Shown here: piece after piece, positions 1-34,017 of the stretch | How positions within the stretch are numbered: position 1 is the stretch's first letter | Layout of the letters: each line of letters starts with the position of its first letter | Origin: a virus | Strand: one strand, 5' to 3' | IMG/VR virus record: IMGVR_UViG_3300022602_000265 | Location: 1 to 34,017 of that record | DNA length: 34,017 bases | The notes under the pieces: model-generated | The model's input: the letters and a program-made list of their open reading frames with translations, nothing else | Database searches by the model: none | Told to the model about the DNA's origin: nothing | Translations under genes and position numbers: made by a program

Positions 1-127
1 TTTGCCCGCCTGATTGCGGTTTCGGCAACGCAGACATCAGCTGCGCCACACCTTGTGCCAGGTCCTCGATCTTGGATCCGACCTGTTTGTTCATGCTGTC
101 TTCGGCCTTCTGGATAATGGCCATCAG
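1..127. repeat. Terminal direct repeat, copy 1 (circular-contig overlap)
   Basis: These 127 bases are identical to the last 127 bases of the window (33891-34017). The repeat lies inside the portal reading frame, which is continuous when the two ends are joined. The length fits a k-mer overlap left at the ends of a circular or circularly permuted assembly. It is less likely to be a biological terminal repeat, because P22-like phages package by headful and have no fixed ends. The non-redundant genome would be 33,890 bp. Confidence 0.95.
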
Positions 128-8125: not shown

Positions 8126-8253
8126 CGGACACCTTTAAGGTTGTCCAGCAAACGCTCTTCGCCTATCATCTGAAGGCTTTTAGCAATCGCCGGTCCATGG
8201 CGGTTTGTTTCAGAAGGGGTCGAGTTTGCCGCTCGGCCCCTTCGCTCTAACAT
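8080..8253 (-). CDS. Possible small gene upstream of the DUF1376 gene (57 aa)
   Basis: A minus-strand frame from the ATG at 8253 reads MLERRGRAANSTPSETNRHG and ends STLGTI, overlapping the DUF1376 start by 46 nt. A GGAG lies 9 nt upstream. The middle (SLQMIGEERLLDNLKG) looks protein-like, but the C-terminus looks like a shadow of the next gene. Otherwise 8126-8280 is noncoding and probably carries promoters for the divergent genes. Confidence 0.3.
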   Translation of the reverse strand: MLERRGRAANSTPSETNRHGPAIAKSLQMIGEERLLDNLKGVRCHPHHSCRSTLGTI

Positions 8254-8576: not shown

Positions 8577-8761
8577 CGCCTGATCCTGCGGTGCTCCAGG
8601 TCCTTCATCCCGCCCTGCCAGGTCGTTTGCACAAATGCTCGGGTCATGTGATACGGGCAATATATTTTCCCCCCGGTAGGTTCAGCGCAGAATAAATGCT
8701 CGTCGGTCTGTAACACCGGCCAGTGACATTCAAATTTGCCAAGCTGACCGAGAGTTTTCAT
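8567..8761 (-). CDS. Stand-alone GcrA C-terminal-like zinc protein (64 aa)
   Basis: The protein contains GKFECHWPV, then LFCAEPTGGKIYCPYH, the C-WP-x(n)-FC-x(n)-YC-x2-H pattern of the C-terminal domain of GcrA, the alphaproteobacterial cell-cycle regulator. In GcrA that domain contacts the housekeeping sigma-70; the N-terminal DNA-binding domain is missing here. The start ATG at 8761 overlaps the nuclease stop as ATGA. Three Cys and one His could hold zinc. By analogy it may bind host sigma-70 and alter host or phage promoter use; this is inference. It is one of the best host-range clues in the window. Confidence 0.75.
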   Translation of the reverse strand: MKTLGQLGKFECHWPVLQTDEHLFCAEPTGGKIYCPYHMTRAFVQTTWQGGMKDLEHRRIRRWS

Positions 8762-9093
8762 TTTTCTGCCGCCAAACTCAAGAGATGCAGGAACGTGTCT
8801 TCCTCAAGGTAGAACCGCCAGTCACCGTGATCGGCCCTGATGGCCAGAATTTCTACACCCGCCAGCCAGCCTTCCAGCGTCATCGGTGGCAGCTTCCGGC
8901 GCTTCACTTCGACGCGGAACGTCTGATCCCCAAACACCATGCGAAGGTCGCCCTGGAGGCCAGCGGATCCAATGCGGGTTCCGAATGCACCGGAGGCCGG
9001 CTGTTTACGCACCGTCACGCCAGGCACACGCTCGAGGAGTTTAAGCAGCTCTGTCTCACCGCGTGAGCCCTTGGACTTTGCCTTAATGGCCAC
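8758..9093 (-). CDS. PDDEXK-type nuclease, Holliday-junction-resolvase-like (111 aa)
   Basis: The order of motifs fits a small PDDEXK nuclease: KGSRGETELLKLLE with an early Glu, then GTRIGSAGLQGDLRMVFG giving the central Asp, and FRVEVKRRK giving the E-x-K pair. Such phage proteins resemble Hjc-type resolvases and can cleave branched DNA before packaging. I favour a GTG start at 9093 (VAIKAKSKGSRGE) because GGAG lies about 5 nt upstream and the overlap with the HTH gene is short. An in-frame ATG at 9147 would give 129 aa but a 65-nt overlap. It ends in an ATGA junction with the GcrA-like gene. Substrate is inferred. Confidence 0.75.
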   Translation of the reverse strand: MAIKAKSKGSRGETELLKLLERVPGVTVRKQPASGAFGTRIGSAGLQGDLRMVFGDQTFRVEVKRRKLPPMTLEGWLAGVEILAIRADHGDWRFYLEEDTFLHLLSLAAEK

Positions 9094-9253
9094 TGGGTCT
9101 CCAATGCTCGAGCGGTATTTTGGCTGCGTCGGCGATCTGAAAGGCAAGCTGTAAGCTAGGCGTACGCTTCTTGTTGGCCAGCTGGTGGGCGTAGGAATGA
9201 CCTAAGCCCATTCCGCGCAACCGATCGTAAATTTGTTTTGGCGTTTCGTTCAT
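9083..9253 (-). CDS. Cro/C1-type HTH transcriptional regulator (56 aa)
   Basis: The short protein begins MNETPKQIYDRLRGMGLGHS and continues YAHQLANKKRTPSLQLAFQI, a helix-turn-helix of the Cro/YdaS kind, with little else. It is transcribed divergently from the plus-strand block, across a region rich in inverted repeats, as expected for a phage switch regulator. The start is uncertain: in-frame ATGs lie at 9253 and 9268 and a TTG at 9301, and none has a clear ribosome-binding site. I chose 9253 as the minimal complete HTH. With no integrase visible, it may be an early/late regulator and not a lysogeny repressor. Confidence 0.75.
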   Translation of the reverse strand: MNETPKQIYDRLRGMGLGHSYAHQLANKKRTPSLQLAFQIADAAKIPLEHWRPSGH

Positions 9254-9714: not shown

Positions 9715-9920
9715 TGATCTGGCACAGTGGTGGTGACGTGATGTGGAACGGCGCCCGCTTGCAGGCTTGGCAGGCTGAGTTTTTGGATGACTTGTGGGCC
9801 GATGAATGCCGCGCTGCGTTCCAGGCTAACGACAATCTCAACGCCGCCCGCATCCTTGTCCTTCGCGACGAACTCAACGCAGCGCTGACCGCTGCAATCA
9901 ATTGGAAGAAGTGCTCATGA
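9714..9920 (+). CDS. Small hypothetical protein (68 aa)
   Basis: Begins at the ATG at 9714 (MIWHSGGDVMWNGARLQAWQ), which overlaps the previous stop as TGATG and follows a GGGGG stretch about 5 nt upstream. It ends in an ATGA junction with the Erf-like gene. The C-terminal half is one helix (NAARILVLRDELNAALTAAI). Position suggests an accessory to recombination; no family recognised. Confidence 0.7.
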   Translation: MIWHSGGDVMWNGARLQAWQAEFLDDLWADECRAAFQANDNLNAARILVLRDELNAALTAAINWKKCS

Positions 9921-10513
9921 CCCCTGAATTTGCAAAGGCGCTGGTCGCCGCACAGAAGGCCACCTATCCGGTCTACAAGCAGGCCACCAACCCTGCGTTT
10001 CGGTCCAAATACGCCGATCTGGCGGCGGTTGTTGAGGCGACCATCCCGGCACTGAATGAAGCGGGGATCTCCGTCCTTCAGATGCCGGACTTTGACGGTG
10101 AGCAACTGATCCTTACCACGGTGCTAATGCACGTGTCGGGCGATAGCCTCACTCACGTCATGCGTATGCCGGTGAGCAAGCGGGATCCTCAAGGGATCGG
10201 TTCCGCCACCACCTACGCTAGGCGCTATAGCCTGCTGGCTATGACCGGCGCCGCACCGGAGGATGACGACGGCAACGCAGCATCTGGCCCAGCTCCAGCA
10301 GCCAAGAAGTCCAGCGCACAGGCGAAGAAGGACGGCGACTGGGACCGCATCATGGCGGCCATCAACGGATGCGACACCGAACAGGAGCTGGACACGTGGT
10401 GGGCCAAGATGGAACGATTCTGGGGTCAGATGCCCCAGGCGTGGCCCGACGCCGCAGCCAATGAGGTGGAGAAGCGCCGCAACGAGATCCTGGACCGATT
10501 GGCCGAGGCATGA
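9917..10513 (+). CDS. erf: Erf-family single-strand DNA annealing protein (198 aa)
   Basis: Erf proteins anneal complementary single strands in phage recombination and, in P22, help circularise infecting DNA. The first ~125 residues fit the family: KALVAAQKATYPVYKQATNP, FRSKYADLAAVVEATIPALN, then a beta region and GIGSATTYARRYSLLAMTGA, followed by an acidic APEDDDGNAA. After a low-complexity Ala/Lys linker there is a small helical C-terminal domain (about 140-198). The ATG at 9917 follows GGAAGAAG and makes an ATGA junction; an ATG at 9902 is also in frame. A following SSB-tip protein and this gene form a plausible annealing module. Confidence 0.9.
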   Translation: MTPEFAKALVAAQKATYPVYKQATNPAFRSKYADLAAVVEATIPALNEAGISVLQMPDFDGEQLILTTVLMHVSGDSLTHVMRMPVSKRDPQGIGSATTYARRYSLLAMTGAAPEDDDGNAASGPAPAAKKSSAQAKKDGDWDRIMAAINGCDTEQELDTWWAKMERFWGQMPQAWPDAAANEVEKRRNEILDRLAEA

Positions 10514-11346: not shown

Positions 11347-11900
11347 ACACCCCAGACGGTGGAGTCACTGACGAACCCATGCCGCCGGAATGGGCGCGGG
11401 CATATGCAGACGCGTATCCTGATCGCCTGGTGGAATATGTCGAACAGCAACACGCGGTCATCGACGACTTTGATGAGAAGGGCGTCATGACCCACACATC
11501 ACAATCAGAAAGGAACATTCCAATGAATTTTGACAACATCACTATCGGCCAAGCCAAGCAAATTGCGGCGCTGGTCAACGGCATCAAAAGTGAGCCGACT
11601 TGCACCGTAACGGCGCACGACCCCATTCCCGTTATTGTCTGCACGGACAAGCGCGGTGTGGTGTTCGGATACACGACGGACACCAATGCTCGCCCCATTG
11701 TTCTGACCGCTGCCCGCATGTGCCTGTACTGGTCCGCCGACGTGGGGGGCGTGTTTGGGCTGGCTGAAGTCGGGCCGACGAAGGACTGCAAAATCTCTGC
11801 CGTTGTTCCGTCGATCACGCTGGAGGGCGTGACTGCCATCATGTCAGTGGACGACAAAGCCGTGAAAGCTTGGGCCTCGGCAAAAACGCAGGGGCGCTGA
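11343..11900 (+). CDS. DUF6948-like protein with a second internal start (185 aa / 125 aa)
   Basis: The long form from the ATG at 11343 starts MNTPDGGVTDEPMPPEWARA. An internal in-frame ATG at 11523 (MNFDNITIGQAKQIAALVNG) has its own AAAGGA 8 nt upstream. The part after the internal start resembles the DUF6948 family as I remember it: a beta-rich region with IVLTAARMCLYWSADVGGVF and an AVVPSITLEGVTAI ending. The first 60 residues look like a separate small helical protein (DAYPDRLVEYVEQQHAVIDD). Either both forms are made or two genes have fused. Function unknown. The Gly-rich repeat gene follows immediately. Confidence 0.7.
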   Translation: MNTPDGGVTDEPMPPEWARAYADAYPDRLVEYVEQQHAVIDDFDEKGVMTHTSQSERNIPMNFDNITIGQAKQIAALVNGIKSEPTCTVTAHDPIPVIVCTDKRGVVFGYTTDTNARPIVLTAARMCLYWSADVGGVFGLAEVGPTKDCKISAVVPSITLEGVTAIMSVDDKAVKAWASAKTQGR

Positions 11901-11901
11901 T

Positions 11902-12093
11902 ATGGCTGCGATGCTTTTCGGCGAGCAACCCTCCGGCGACGGCGACGGCTACGGCTACGGCGACGGCTACGGCTACGGCTACGGCGACGGCGACGGCTAC
12001 GGCGACGGCTACGGCGACGGCTACGGCTACGGCTACGGCGACGGCTACGGCGACGGCTACGGCTCCGGCTACGGAGAGGATGTCAGCACATGA
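11902..12093 (+). CDS. Gly-Asp/Gly-Tyr dipeptide-repeat protein (63 aa)
   Basis: After a short leader (MAAMLFGEQPSG) the protein is 23 dipeptides of Gly plus Asp, Tyr or once Ser, ending GEDVST. AGGGG lies about 8 nt before the ATG at 11902, and the stop makes an ATGA junction with the next gene, so this frame and not the other open ones is the coding one. The alternating Gly/Tyr/Asp composition is that of a disordered, possibly phase-separating or adhesive peptide. No function is known to me; it directly follows the DUF6948-like gene. Confidence 0.7.
   Translation: MAAMLFGEQPSGDGDGYGYGDGYGYGYGDGDGYGDGYGDGYGYGYGDGYGDGYGSGYGEDVST
11935..12072 (+). repeat. Tandem GGC(G/T)AC hexamer array, 23 units
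   Basis: The 138 bases are 23 consecutive hexamers, each GGCGAC or GGCTAC with one GGCTCC near the end. Because the unit is 6 bp, copy-number change never shifts the frame of the Gly-repeat gene. The order of units is irregular (D D Y Y D Y Y Y D D Y D Y D Y Y Y D Y D Y S Y in protein terms), with 12-bp GGCGACGGCTAC blocks common. Slippage or recombination between units is likely to vary its length. Confidence 0.95.
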
Positions 12094-12773
12094 CCCACAC
12101 AGACCTGACCTTATGCGGCGGATGCGGGAAATACATTCTGGGCACGATCCGCATGTGTCCCGGCTGCGGATGGAGGCCCGACACCCCCGACACCGCCCCT
12201 AGCCAGAGCGCTGACCTGATAGCTGAGGCTGAGGACTGTCGCCAGACGATGGTAGATGGCGATCAATGGCGGTTTGCAAGAGTGACGCGCGACCTCATCA
12301 CCGCCCTCCGCGCAGCAGAGGAACGTGCCGAAGTTCTGCAATCCGAACTGACCGAGTTCCTTGATATTGGCTACTCGTTGGAGCGGATCGCAAACCTGAG
12401 CGAAAAATGGTCTGACAGTCTTGTCCGCCAGATCAACGAGATTGCCCGCGACGCACTCGACCGACGGTCAACGGACTACGCCGACGCCCTCCGCGCAGCA
12501 GAGGCTGAGAACGCGAGGCTGCGGGAGCCCGACATGTTCTGGGATTCGGAAGACCCCGAGAACGCAGCGGAAAGCGAAGATGATCTGGTGTCGCAAATCG
12601 GGTCGTTTGCACCAACCGTCATGCGCGTCATGAGCGCAGTTCGAATGCCGGATTATTGGATCGCCGCGACCTGTCCCGAAGACGACGTGGAATGGGTGAT
12701 CACCCGGCACAAAACGCGCGAGGAGGCGGAAGCCGCCCTTGCCGCCCGCCGCGCCCTTGGAGGTGAGCCGTGA
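12090..12773 (+). CDS. Zinc-ribbon plus coiled-coil protein (227 aa), cassette member 1
   Basis: Residues 9-27 hold a four-Cys zinc ribbon (LCGGCGKYILGTIRMCPGCG). The rest is helical with two similar coiled-coil segments (DLITALRAAEERAEVLQSEL and YADALRAAEAENARLREP), an acidic patch (WDSEDPENAAESEDD) and the C-terminus AALAARRALGGEP. That last segment is encoded by the 33-bp element repeated at three later gene ends. The ATG at 12090 overlaps the previous stop as ATGA. The two internal ALRAAE blocks suggest duplication within the gene. Function unknown; a protein-protein adaptor is plausible. Confidence 0.75.
   Translation: MTHTDLTLCGGCGKYILGTIRMCPGCGWRPDTPDTAPSQSADLIAEAEDCRQTMVDGDQWRFARVTRDLITALRAAEERAEVLQSELTEFLDIGYSLERIANLSEKWSDSLVRQINEIARDALDRRSTDYADALRAAEAENARLREPDMFWDSEDPENAAESEDDLVSQIGSFAPTVMRVMSAVRMPDYWIAATCPEDDVEWVITRHKTREEAEAALAARRALGGEP
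12741..12773 (+). repeat. 33-bp gene-end element, copy 1
   Basis: Encodes the C-terminus AARRALGGEP and stop of the 227-aa gene. It also contains GGAGGTGAG as ribosome-binding site and GTGA as the overlapping GTG start of the next gene at 12770. It is identical to the copy at 13902-13934. Confidence 0.9.
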
Positions 12774-13084
12774 GAAACAAATACGCCGGAAGTTGTGTTC
12801 AGTGCGGTCAGTCAGTTGCAGAGGGCGCGGGCTATTTCCAGCGCACCCACAGCGGCAAATGTCGGTGGATAGTGCGATGCATGGCATGCGTCGTCGCTGG
12901 CAAACTGGCGAAAGGCGACACGCTGTCACTTGCGCAACAGGAGCACGGCCGCCGCACACTTCGGACAAATTACCGCTCGGGAACATCTGGGGATTTAAAC
13001 GCATCTGACATGCGAAATATTCCCGATCAGGAAGACGATGTTTCAGAGGCCCAAGAATGGGAGGACTTTGATCGTGACTGTTGA
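12770..13084 (+). CDS. Small zinc-finger-like protein (104 aa)
   Basis: Starts with GTG at 12770 inside the preceding gene-end element (V/M-RNKYAGSCVQCGQSVAEGAG). Cysteines in SCVQCG and later CRWIVRCMAC form a plausible zinc-binding four-Cys site over residues 9-41. The C-terminal third is acidic and probably disordered (NIPDQEDDVSEAQEWEDFD). Similar short proteins with a CxxCG and a GxG turn are common in phage early regions. This gene does not itself end in the repeated element, unlike its neighbours. Role unknown. Confidence 0.7.
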   Translation: MRNKYAGSCVQCGQSVAEGAGYFQRTHSGKCRWIVRCMACVVAGKLAKGDTLSLAQQEHGRRTLRTNYRSGTSGDLNASDMRNIPDQEDDVSEAQEWEDFDRDC

Positions 13085-13454
13085 TCTCGATGCCTGCAAG
13101 CCGTGCCCATTCTGCGGCAGTCATGACTTATCCACCAACGGACATGGCGCTTACACCATAGTGGTGTGTTGCGATTGTTTGGCTGAAGGCCCGCACGGAC
13201 ATCCCAGCAAAGCCATTTCGCGCTGGAACACCCGAGCCAGTGCCGAAATCGACATGGTGACGTTAAGCCGCTCCGACCTTGAAAATTCTTACAACAAATT
13301 ACGGGAGGCGCTGGAACGCGGCGTCGAAATCCTGACATCGCCCGACATGCAGCAGTGGCGCTATGTCGAAGGCGGCGACATGCACTTTGACGTTGGAGTG
13401 TGGGTCAACGCCGCCCGCCGCGCCCTTGGGGGTAGCAATGACCCAACCACCTGA
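13074..13454 (+). CDS. Lar-like zinc protein with cassette C-terminus (126 aa)
   Basis: The N-terminal ~50 residues fit the Lar/restriction-alleviation type pattern: ACKPCPFCGSHDLST, then VVCCDCLAEGPHG and AISRWNTRA. A helical second part follows (YNKLREALERGVEILTSPD), and the C-terminus is NAARRALGGSNDPTT. The GTG start at 13074 follows AGGA by 8 nt and overlaps the previous stop by 11 nt. The terminal element differs from the other copies, lacks the usual in-frame stop, and reads 17 nt into the next gene. In E. coli Lar modulates type I restriction; anti-restriction here is only a family-based guess. Confidence 0.7.
   Translation: MTVDLDACKPCPFCGSHDLSTNGHGAYTIVVCCDCLAEGPHGHPSKAISRWNTRASAEIDMVTLSRSDLENSYNKLREALERGVEILTSPDMQQWRYVEGGDMHFDVGVWVNAARRALGGSNDPTT
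13410..13441 (+). repeat. Gene-end element, copy 2 (diverged, 1 nt shorter)
   Basis: The first 20 bases match copies 1 and 4 exactly; the rest diverges, is one base shorter and gives ATG instead of GTG as the next start at 13438. The length change puts the usual TGA out of frame, so the Lar-like protein gains a few residues. Confidence 0.8.
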
Positions 13455-13680
13455 ACACCTTTGGCTTGTCGTCGGACGGCCCGCGTCGGCTGATGCAGTG
13501 AAATGGGTCGCGGACCTTGTGGCCGAGAATACCCGCCTGACTGCCCAGCTTGCTGAACGGGAGGCTGCCAGCAACATCATCCGTGGAGTCAGCCAAATCA
13601 CCAGCGCAGATTTGTTCTTAACCAGCGTGGATCAACTTGAAATGTTGACCGCCCGCCGCTCCATTGGAGGTGAGCCGTGA
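13438..13680 (+). CDS. Short coiled-coil protein (80 aa), cassette member
   Basis: Starts at the ATG at 13438 (MTQPPEHLWLVVGRPASADA) with GGGGGT upstream, inside the preceding element. Its middle is a leucine-rich helix (DLVAENTRLTAQLAEREAAS) of the same type as the neighbouring gene products, and it ends TARRSIGGEP from element copy 3. It overlaps the Lar-like gene by 17 nt. Function unknown; dimerisation via the shared coil is plausible. Confidence 0.65.
   Translation: MTQPPEHLWLVVGRPASADAVKWVADLVAENTRLTAQLAEREAASNIIRGVSQITSADLFLTSVDQLEMLTARRSIGGEP
13648..13680 (+). repeat. 33-bp gene-end element, copy 3
   Basis: Same length as copies 1 and 4 with several substitutions in the first half. 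The second half, GGAGGTGAGCCGTGA, is identical and supplies the ribosome-binding site and GTG start of the next gene at 13677. Confidence 0.85.
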
Positions 13681-13934
13681 AGCTAAACCACACCATTGAG
13701 CAGCTTGCGGCCATGACGGTCCGCGCTGACAGCCGACCCCTTGCCGAGGACTGCCTTGCGCTGATCCGTGAGAATGAGAGGCTGCGGGAGGCGCTGGAGA
13801 AACTGCTTCACGCGGTCTGCGGACCAACAGGCTTTGCCGAGAGCATCCGTTACGACTGCAACAGAGCGTATCCGTGGCCCGCGCTCGACATAGCTGAAGA
13901 AGCCGCCCGCCGCGCCCTTGGAGGTGAGCCGTGA
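13677..13934 (+). CDS. Short coiled-coil protein (85 aa), last cassette member
   Basis: GTG start at 13677 within element copy 3 (V/M-KLNHTIEQLAAMTVRADS). A helix ALIRENERLREALEKLLHAV dominates the centre, and the C-terminus EEAARRALGGEP comes from element copy 4. It is the final gene of the plus-strand block. Its stop (TGA, 13932-13934) abuts the stop of the opposing metallophosphoesterase gene, making a TGATCA with no space between genes. Function unknown. Confidence 0.7.
   Translation: MKLNHTIEQLAAMTVRADSRPLAEDCLALIRENERLREALEKLLHAVCGPTGFAESIRYDCNRAYPWPALDIAEEAARRALGGEP
13902..13934 (+). repeat. 33-bp gene-end element, copy 4 (downstream gene missing)
   Basis: Identical in all 33 bases to copy 1. 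It still supplies GGAGGTGAG and a GTG at 13931, but the frame that follows stops after only seven codons because the opposing late gene begins there. It looks like the broken end of the cassette series. Confidence 0.9.
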
Positions 13935-15008
13935 TCAGCCGAACAATCGTTTGAGCCGCAGCATCGAAACAAACGCAACGTCGGTGATCGTTCCATCCAC
14001 CACCGTCATGTCCACCACACCCCACCACCAGCCGGTGCTTGAGTGCTGGGCGTAGGATTCAATCTCGCCCCAAGGCATTCCGCAGCCCACCTCGACCATG
14101 CTGATGGAATCAGTTGGCCCGATCTTGGGAGCATCATGCACCTGGCGGCGGTGGGTGTGGCCTGACACAATCGGACATGTCGTGTGATTGGCTGCCCGCT
14201 GAGGGCCTGTAGCGCCTCCGTAAGCCCGTCCAGCGCCATTGACGGGGTGATGCACAAACCCAACCCCATTGACGTAGAACAGCTCCCCATACGGCCGCAC
14301 ACGCCAGCCGAACTGCGTGAAGAGTTCATCCCGCTGAACGGTAAAGCTCTCCGCTGTCTCAGGGTTGGCGTTGCACCATCTTTCCAGGCGGTATTCGTGG
14401 TTGCCTAAAAGAATGTCCTGTTTGGGTCGATAGTCCGAAGCTATCCCCGCCCTCCAGGCTTGCAGGCTCTGCTTGAGGTTCTCCATGTCCTGGCGGATGC
14501 TGGGCTTGTGCCGGCCAGCCATGGTGTCGTTGCGATCATGTGCCGAGACACTGTCCCAGCTCGACCAATCCCCCACCTGGATGATCCGCTCAAACCTTTC
14601 CTTTGAGGCATACCGGGCAATCCACGTAAGCACTTCCAGCCTGTGAGGTTGTCCGGGGTTCTGATGGAGATCGCCAATAACAAGAAGCCGGGATCCATGT
14701 CCCGGCGTTGATATCACTGGATCTGCGGCCGGTGTGATGACTTGTCGTGGAATCGGCTGCTGGTATCTCTGCGGACGGTAGAGCGTCCAATCAGGCTCCA
14801 GACCCATAGTCGCGCAACGGGTGATCCGTGCCTCAAAGGAGCTTGTGGTCTTCACAAACCCATCTGCGACCGCCTTTTGAGCAGCCGCAGCTATGGCACC
14901 CATGCCCGATCCCGTGATGCCGCGGGGTCGGTATCCCGCCCGCAACTCAACCTCCACCCGCTCCATGGTTTCGCGAGCGGCCTCAAGGTTGAGAGGCGGA
15001 GTGCCCAT
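13935..15008 (-). CDS. Calcineurin-like metallophosphoesterase with N-terminal helical domain (357 aa)
   Basis: The metal-binding motifs appear in order: VIGDLHQN (about 110-117), QVGDWSSWDS (about 144-153), LLGNHEYR (about 201-208) and SGHTHRR (about 285). This is the full calcineurin-like set for a two-metal phosphoesterase. Residues 1-80 form a separate helical, possibly DNA-binding, domain (GAIAAAAQKAVADGFVKT). The ATG at 15008 overlaps the preceding stop by 1 nt. Substrates of such phage enzymes range from nucleic acids to cyclic nucleotides; nothing here decides. It is the last gene of the long minus-strand late run and ends stop-to-stop against the early block. Confidence 0.88.
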   Translation of the reverse strand: MGTPPLNLEAARETMERVEVELRAGYRPRGITGSGMGAIAAAAQKAVADGFVKTTSSFEARITRCATMGLEPDWTLYRPQRYQQPIPRQVITPAADPVISTPGHGSRLLVIGDLHQNPGQPHRLEVLTWIARYASKERFERIIQVGDWSSWDSVSAHDRNDTMAGRHKPSIRQDMENLKQSLQAWRAGIASDYRPKQDILLGNHEYRLERWCNANPETAESFTVQRDELFTQFGWRVRPYGELFYVNGVGFVHHPVNGAGRAYGGATGPQRAANHTTCPIVSGHTHRRQVHDAPKIGPTDSISMVEVGCGMPWGEIESYAQHSSTGWWWGVVDMTVVDGTITDVAFVSMLRLKRLFG

Positions 15009-33875: not shown

Positions 33876-34017
33876 TCATCATTCCTTCTGTTTGCCCGCC
33901 TGATTGCGGTTTCGGCAACGCAGACATCAGCTGCGCCACACCTTGTGCCAGGTCCTCGATCTTGGATCCGACCTGTTTGTTCATGCTGTCTTCGGCCTTC
34001 TGGATAATGGCCATCAG
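33784..34017 (-). CDS. Portal protein, C-terminal end (continues from base 1)
   Basis: This is the 3' end of the portal gene described at 1-2209. Unique bases are 33784-33890; 33891-34017 repeat 1-127. The frame reads to QSGGQTEGMMNAGSTRNDDG and stops at 33784. The last ~30 residues are Gly/Ser/Asn-rich and overlap the scaffold gene, whose ribosome-binding site lies in the portal codons around 33883-33889. The junction at 33890/1 is in frame, which supports a circular map. Confidence 0.88.
   Translation of the reverse strand: MMAIIQKAEDSMNKQVGSKIEDLAQGVAQLMSALPKPQSGGQTEGMMNAGSTRNDDGSNPEGGASTVSDIGLPGVQG
33891..34017. repeat. Terminal direct repeat, copy 2
   Basis: Exact copy of 1-127 as described there. 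It should be trimmed to obtain the 33,890-bp circular sequence. Confidence 0.95.

Follow-up and report, generated by a model that had tools for sequence, protein, structure and literature searches.

The small-gene region of this phage is punctuated by a 33-bp element that we consider, with a probability of about 75%, to be a recombinogenic gene-boundary (linker) sequence, i.e., a sequence that couples the translation of adjacent genes and serves as a short homology patch for recombination. It is present in four copies in register (repeat family D4) in the window, by which we mean the whole 34,017-bp stretch analyzed (IMG/VR virus record IMGVR_UViG_3300022602_000265). Genes have been exchanged at the element, and it is shared across phage lineages.

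Genome and setting

Identical direct repeats of 127 bp at the two ends of the window (1-127 and 33891-34017) suggest that the genome is complete and either circular or terminally redundant. Domain and PHROG searches identified genes for a large terminase, a head-closure protein, DNA-ejection proteins, a tail spike, an endolysin and a primosomal protein. The packaging and head proteins are P22-like, and the gene set follows a P22-like podovirus plan. The same searches found two genes of recombination type:

8758-9147, minus strand: RusA-like Holliday-junction resolvase gene (PHROG 244, E 5e-10)
9902-10513, plus strand: Erf-type single-strand annealing protein gene, upstream of the elements and on the same strand (PF04404, E 1e-21; PHROG 2324, E 3e-37)

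The Erf-type protein is a candidate recombinase. An ORF at 11902-12093 (63 aa) consists of nearly nothing but a 6-bp-based repeat encoding (D/Y)-G, and since the version in the relative L010 carries F/S-G variants, it is variable in length and composition. A search of 50,697 public phage records with the window gave no near DNA match, and in distant mode only matches at chance level. Among INPHARED phages, no DNA match to the window above E 1e-5 was found.

Anatomy of the element

The four copies are arranged as follows:

12741-12773, plus strand: copy 1; closes gene 12090-12773 (AARRALGGEP-stop), with the Shine-Dalgarno match GGAGGTGA and the GTGA start of gene 12770 (sequence; repeat family D4)
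13410-13442, plus strand: copy 2, diverged (GGGGGTAGCAATGA, 70%); closes the Lar-like gene as AARRALGGSNDPTT-stop, with the next ATG at 13438 (sequence, repeat family; left half recurs in the L010 junction)
13648-13680, plus strand: copy 3 (91%); closes gene 13438-13680 as TARRSIGGEP-stop, with the next GTG at 13677 (sequence, repeat family; right half recurs in the L010 junction)
13902-13934, plus strand: copy 4 (100%, identical to copy 1); closes gene 13677-13934 as AARRALGGEP (sequence, repeat family)

An earlier note on this DNA had described four copies of a ~33-bp element, and all four are indeed in register; the copies it called diverged are those at 91% and 70%. It had also described each copy as a protein tag, a ribosome-binding site and an overlapping GTGA start in one. 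This holds for copies 1, 3 and 4, each of which has a GGAGGTGA Shine-Dalgarno match and a GTGA stop/start. Copy 2 has GGGGGT in place of GGAGGT, and its junction is not of the GTGA/ATGA form because the gene that it closes (stop at 13452-13454) runs 17 nt into the next gene, which starts with ATG at 13438. Nor does every copy start a gene, as the GTG of copy 4 at 13931 opens a frame of only 7 codons (MISRTIV-stop). At this position L010 and L011 carry a gene beginning MIQPxLFPEQ..., of which the window keeps only the 3' end, from about 13952. The GTG and its 7-codon frame are probably the scar of a lost downstream gene.

Pairwise identity among copies 1, 3 and 4 is 91-100%, and copy 2 is 61-70% identical to the others, while the 60-bp flanks of any pair of copies are at chance level (22-38%; 22-30% for copies 1, 3 and 4). 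With the codon use of this phage, the probability that AARRALGGEP, if encoded twice independently, would have the same bases throughout is ~3e-6, and the chance of exactly these six AARRAL codons is ~9e-4 per copy. The repeat is thus far from chance.

The bases CTT GGA GGT GAG CCG TGA encode L-G-G-E-P-stop and at the same time contain GGAGGTGA, which is complementary to the 3' end of 16S rRNA; GGAGG lies 6 nt before the stop-overlapping GTG. The LGGE "tag" is therefore a peptide shadow of the ribosome-binding site. Other tails in the gene pool follow the same logic, i.e., ILAALGGEP, which has its 3' 21 bp in common with the element, and RFHAAEGE, which has a GGAGGGTGAG...ATGA of its own. The boundary sequence behind the RFHAAEGE tail (CGCTTCCACGCTGCGGAGGGTGAG..ATGA) is found at L010:13453, L010:15187, L011:12711 and in L097 (reverse strand, near 1443), with different genes after it, and repeats the logic of the element in another sequence.

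Such tails might also arise if selection acted on the tail peptide, e.g., as a C-terminal docking helix or a degradation signal, together with a strong Shine-Dalgarno sequence, and recombination were incidental. This would agree with ARRALGGEP, ILAALGGEP and RFHAAEGE all ending in codons that contain a Shine-Dalgarno sequence, by which LGGE is dictated. However, the AARRAL codons lie upstream, outside the ribosome-binding site, and are not explained by it, yet the same codons are used across genes and phages despite the low chance per copy. We consider this explanation unlikely; as a partial cause, selection on the C-terminal peptide could contribute to the conservation of the element.

Genes and boxes of the region

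The genes around the copies, and the boxes within them, are:

12090-12773, plus strand: mosaic gene of 227 aa with the element at its end and shared internal boxes (sequence comparison)
12182-12235, plus strand: intragenic box ADLIAEAEDC..., an island or short block in relatives (island scan)
12301-12321, plus strand: intragenic box, first copy of ALRAAE (CGCCCTCCGCGCAGCAGAGG, again at 12485; repeat search, island scan)
12483-12527, plus strand: intragenic coiled-coil box ALRAAEAENARLRE, with 37-43 bp found unchanged in at least 5 relatives whose flanks are unrelated (island scan)
12770-13084, plus strand: gene started by copy 1 (GTG); the 3' part from 12952 is common to relatives, the 5' part is not (sequence comparison)
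13038-13454, plus strand: Lar-like restriction-alleviation gene closed by copy 2 (PF14354, E 7e-10; PHROG 599, E 9e-14)
13438-13680, plus strand: small gene of 80 aa, MTQPPEHLW..., a cassette absent from L010 (sequence comparison)
13522-13565, plus strand: intragenic coiled-coil box AENTRLTAQLAERE, with 32-34 bp found unchanged in L010 and L005, where the context is unrelated (island scan)
13677-13934, plus strand: small gene of 85 aa, MKLNHTIEQ..., with a head common to L010 and L001 up to the ENERLREAL box, a differing middle and the element as tail (sequence comparison)
13952-13986, plus strand: 3' remnant of the MIQPxLFPEQ gene, intact in L010 and L011; backbone homology picks up again here (relatives comparison)

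The element had been reported to close four successive small genes. Gene 12770-13084, begun by copy 1, ends ...EDFDRDC without the element, which is therefore carried by four of five genes and not by four in succession. The Lar-like gene passes the curated cut-off of its family (PF14354, 39.4 bits against 28.6), and among the small proteins, Lar is the only one to which Pfam and PHROG searches assigned a function. Among the variable-region genes of relatives (L011:13316-13884; L097, reverse strand, 96-788; L095:1529-2137) are DUF3310 and HNH endonuclease genes, a putative cytosine methyltransferase recognized by its VLDLFSGIGG motif only, and an MRVLVACEYSG gene. By its gene content, the variable region may be an anti-defence or accessory locus.

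The shared helices of these proteins had been read as a sign of duplication and divergence. With ordinary duplication, the small genes would be paralogues in which the C-terminal helix and the ribosome-binding site of the next gene stayed conserved and the remainder diverged. Several of the proteins do have a loose common plan (head, coiled coil with ENxRL, tail helix), and genes 3 and 5, like genes 3 and 4, are weakly similar (E 0.01-0.05). In a paralogous tandem array, however, the bodies would be homologous over their full length, whereas only the last 8-11 residues align well and the bodies of the element-bearing genes have no significant protein similarity beyond them. Precisely at the edges of the element, the DNA identity falls from 91-100% to chance level. 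Synonymous positions agree, and in other phages, near-identical cassettes or heads are combined with other tails and have other neighbours. In addition, the Lar and coiled-coil genes suggest different folds under the same tail DNA. Ordinary duplication is therefore improbable, and the ENxRLRE boxes are shared modules separate from the element.

The shared parts were also sought by an island scan of the entire 34-kb window, in which near-identical stretches of 20-62 bp with unrelated flanks were recorded and the simple-repeat gene at 11900-12095 was excluded. Nearly all islands lie in 12182-13934, where they correspond to the four element copies and the boxes at 12182-12233, 12301-12321, 12483-12527 and 13522-13565; elsewhere there are only five small clusters (8213, 9577, 11131, 11479 and 16922). 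The first of these, outside the cassette region, includes a 31-bp island (8213-8243) with unrelated flanks that is common to L004, L010 and L011. As the islands comprise both elements and intragenic boxes, the region is made from standard parts, and the element is one of several kinds of joint. Scans with the two coiled-coil boxes gave matches mostly in the same phage group, plus L113, L114 and L116.

Exchange at the element in relatives

All relatives are metagenome contigs. L010, L011, L012 and L013 are close relatives found via the Erf gene (Erf 96-99%, backbone mostly 83-94%), and the other loci were found by an exact search for the element, so that many loci were picked by the element itself. 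L010 and L011, found independently of it, add to the island pattern on their own. In both, the small-gene region has conserved flanks on the left and the right and a patchwork interior.

The proposal that whole genes are gained, lost or swapped at the element is borne out by several comparisons. One is that between the window, with the order [Lar]-E-[MTQPPEH]-E-[MKLNHTIEQ], and L010, with the order [Lar]-E-[MKLNHTIEQ]. L010 is without gene 13438-13680, and its sole junction (...CTTGGGGGTGAGCCGTGAAGCT...) consists of the left half of copy 2 and the right half of copy 3, with the GGGGGT of copy 2 at the left and the GAGCCGTGAAGCT of copy 3 at the right. A crossover within the element would be expected to yield just such a hybrid, whether the gene was lost or gained. 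The Lar-like gene is 99% identical between the window and L010, through the element, while the adjoining backbone is 91-92% identical (P ~3e-11 at backbone divergence).

L004, L011 and L097 have the Lar gene end in common. Within the element or directly after it, each of the three continues with a different gene (MSLCYLD..., MKLNWTRE... or MKLKVLDLFSGIGG...). L094 and L095 agree in the final part of a gene and in the element, and their gene heads and next genes differ. The MKLNHTIEQ cassette is complete in both L001 and L010 (98.4% over 244 bp), with the homology bounded by element copies at both ends; outside it, the two loci have nothing in common longer than 68 bp, and their surroundings are unrelated.

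The element is not the sole switch point, as most breakpoints of the region lie elsewhere. Only 10 of 104 ends of long-homology blocks fall in the element, against 3.6 expected (the ends not being independent), so that most exchange occurs at other positions, and the element is modestly favoured as a breakpoint without being the main one. Some of the other ends are in LREAL/ENARL boxes within genes. The Lar-like gene, for example, is 96% identical to that of L004 and L011 only up to 13313 (LREAL), after which a different middle is followed by the element again.

As every relative is a metagenome contig and the junctions lie at repeats, assembly chimeras, in which short repeats have misjoined segments, must be considered. 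A repeat of 33 bp is shorter than the usual assembly k-mers, which counts against this, and the reading frames are intact. The same arrangements are also seen in separate assemblies that bear different metagenome numbers (L010/L093, L011/L096/L098, L005/L006, L092/L099 and L003/L004). We regard chimeras as very unlikely.

Spread across phage types

The cassettes cross phage types, because L002 encodes a baseplate wedge protein as found in contractile-tailed phages and L001 and L091 have another terminase family than the window; L001 also has primase/helicase genes. L002 carries the element with two successive cassettes that end in ARRALGGEP and ILAALGGEP; MTLREK and MKLNRTRE heads come next, and the gene families are those of L010. 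Erf is present in the window, L010, L011 and L092, and RecT in L113. L002 had no match to ERF, RecT or Rad52, three families of single-strand annealing proteins; its sequence may not be complete, or it may rely on RecA or on a different annealing protein. The core of the element was not found in about 74 other Erf-bearing phage loci, and the element therefore does not generally accompany Erf.

In 84,980 prokaryote genomes, a degenerate form of the element gave 12 scattered, chance-like matches (19-25 of 30 bases identical), from which neither a host nor a prophage can be identified. The earlier note had reasoned that the cassette idea would fail if related phages had the same genes without the element, or if the element matched only by codon bias in unrelated genes; the idea withstands both tests, and the element is not a codon-bias match. 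In contrast to the scattered matches in prokaryotes, exact copies are located at gene junctions, in related as well as unrelated phages.

Proposed mechanism

What we infer concerns the recombinase, the benefit and the use made of translation coupling. The 3' half of the element would provide a near-ideal Shine-Dalgarno sequence (GGAGGTGA) and an overlapping stop/start that couples the translation of the next gene, and the 5' half would provide the last codons of the previous gene (AARRAL); a gene body between two copies would be correctly closed and the next gene correctly opened. As the same DNA closes many of the non-essential small genes of these phages, each copy would offer a patch of roughly 20-34 bp identity. 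A crossover at the element, between co-infecting phages or between copies within one genome, would be homologous, probably by phage single-strand annealing, and would lead to whole genes being gained, lost or swapped. The recombinants would stay translatable because the patch holds both the closing codons and the opening signals. Intragenic boxes (ENARLRE, LREAL, ENTRLTAQLAE) would have the same role for gene halves.

The minimal pairing segment is 23-27 bp for Red-beta and 31-34 bp for RecA (PMC3945230), so an identical patch of 33 bp would be enough for annealing recombination. The Erf of phage D3 is an active recombinase that recombined diverged DNA as well as Red did (PMC3945230). A link between Erf and exchange at the element is plausible.

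A site-specific system with integron-like attC sites or transposon ends could likewise leave one copy per cassette end and cassette-like gain and loss, but it deserves hardly any credence, as the element has no inverted repeat of 7 bp or more and a fold no better than shuffles, the switch position varies within it, and no integrase, transposase or DNA invertase was found among the window genes scanned (most of them).

Beyond the boundary function of the element, we tentatively suggest, as a doubtful but possible extension, that phages of the same waters have a common pool of interchangeable small genes. These would be built from standard parts (heads, coiled-coil joints and tails closed by one of a few boundary sequences), with boundaries kept because their carriers can exchange genes, as a counterpart of integron cassettes without a dedicated recombinase and across unrelated phage types. 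The pooled genes possibly have anti-restriction and host-takeover roles.

Relation to known systems and significance

That short boundary (linker) sequences may act as recombination sites is an old idea from work on the lambdoid phages (Susskind and Botstein, 1978; Clark et al., 2001, on HK620; both as cited in PMC3029335). These sequences lie between modules, are common to different phages and are proposed as homology for module swapping. The same features are seen here, with a short conserved sequence between unrelated modules (91-100% identity against 22-30% in the flanks, and the island scan) and module exchange or loss with junctions at the element (the L010 hybrid, the L001/L010 cassette and the L004/L011/L097 switches). 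Compared by description, not by sequence, the element differs in being mostly coding, in occurring at several junctions per genome and in having intragenic boxes besides.

ATGA-linked small genes are likewise known from the nin region. Lambda ninR is described as a chain of interlinked genes (Kroger and Hobom, 1982, as given in PMC8022706), which are non-essential, small and tightly packed with overlapping ATGA stop/start motifs. Set against this described ATGA linkage only, the element is one specific sequence of 21-33 bp at several junctions and in unrelated phages. The start-associated sequences (SAS) of cluster K mycobacteriophages are also conserved, near many gene starts per genome and mostly outside structural genes; however, they are 13 bp long, rarely in ORFs and seen as regulatory, whereas the element forms coding 3' ends and marks exchange points (PMC12699233). 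Integron gene cassettes, too, are small interchangeable genes with a common end sequence, but the element has no attC-like structure, the window proteins scanned include no integrase, and the exchange fits homologous recombination. Our literature search found no prior description of coding boundary repeats beyond these lambdoid sequences, ninR and SAS. As far as searched, what is new is a coding boundary sequence at several junctions of one genome, with visible hybrids, sharing between unrelated phage types and intragenic companion boxes.

These results bear on an old debate about the origin of phage mosaicism, in which illegitimate joining at random is set against homologous recombination where short boundary sequences are shared. 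At most junctions boundary sequences cannot be found (PMC3029335), and about 70% of mosaics are without detectable traces of homology (PMC3945230). Here, one system displays a boundary sequence of a length near the minimal pairing segment, the hybrid products of crossovers, two arrangements that differ cleanly in the presence of one gene, and a cassette common to different lineages, all of which makes the homology-driven model directly testable. It also suggests a possible route by which anti-defence genes may pass between unrelated phages.
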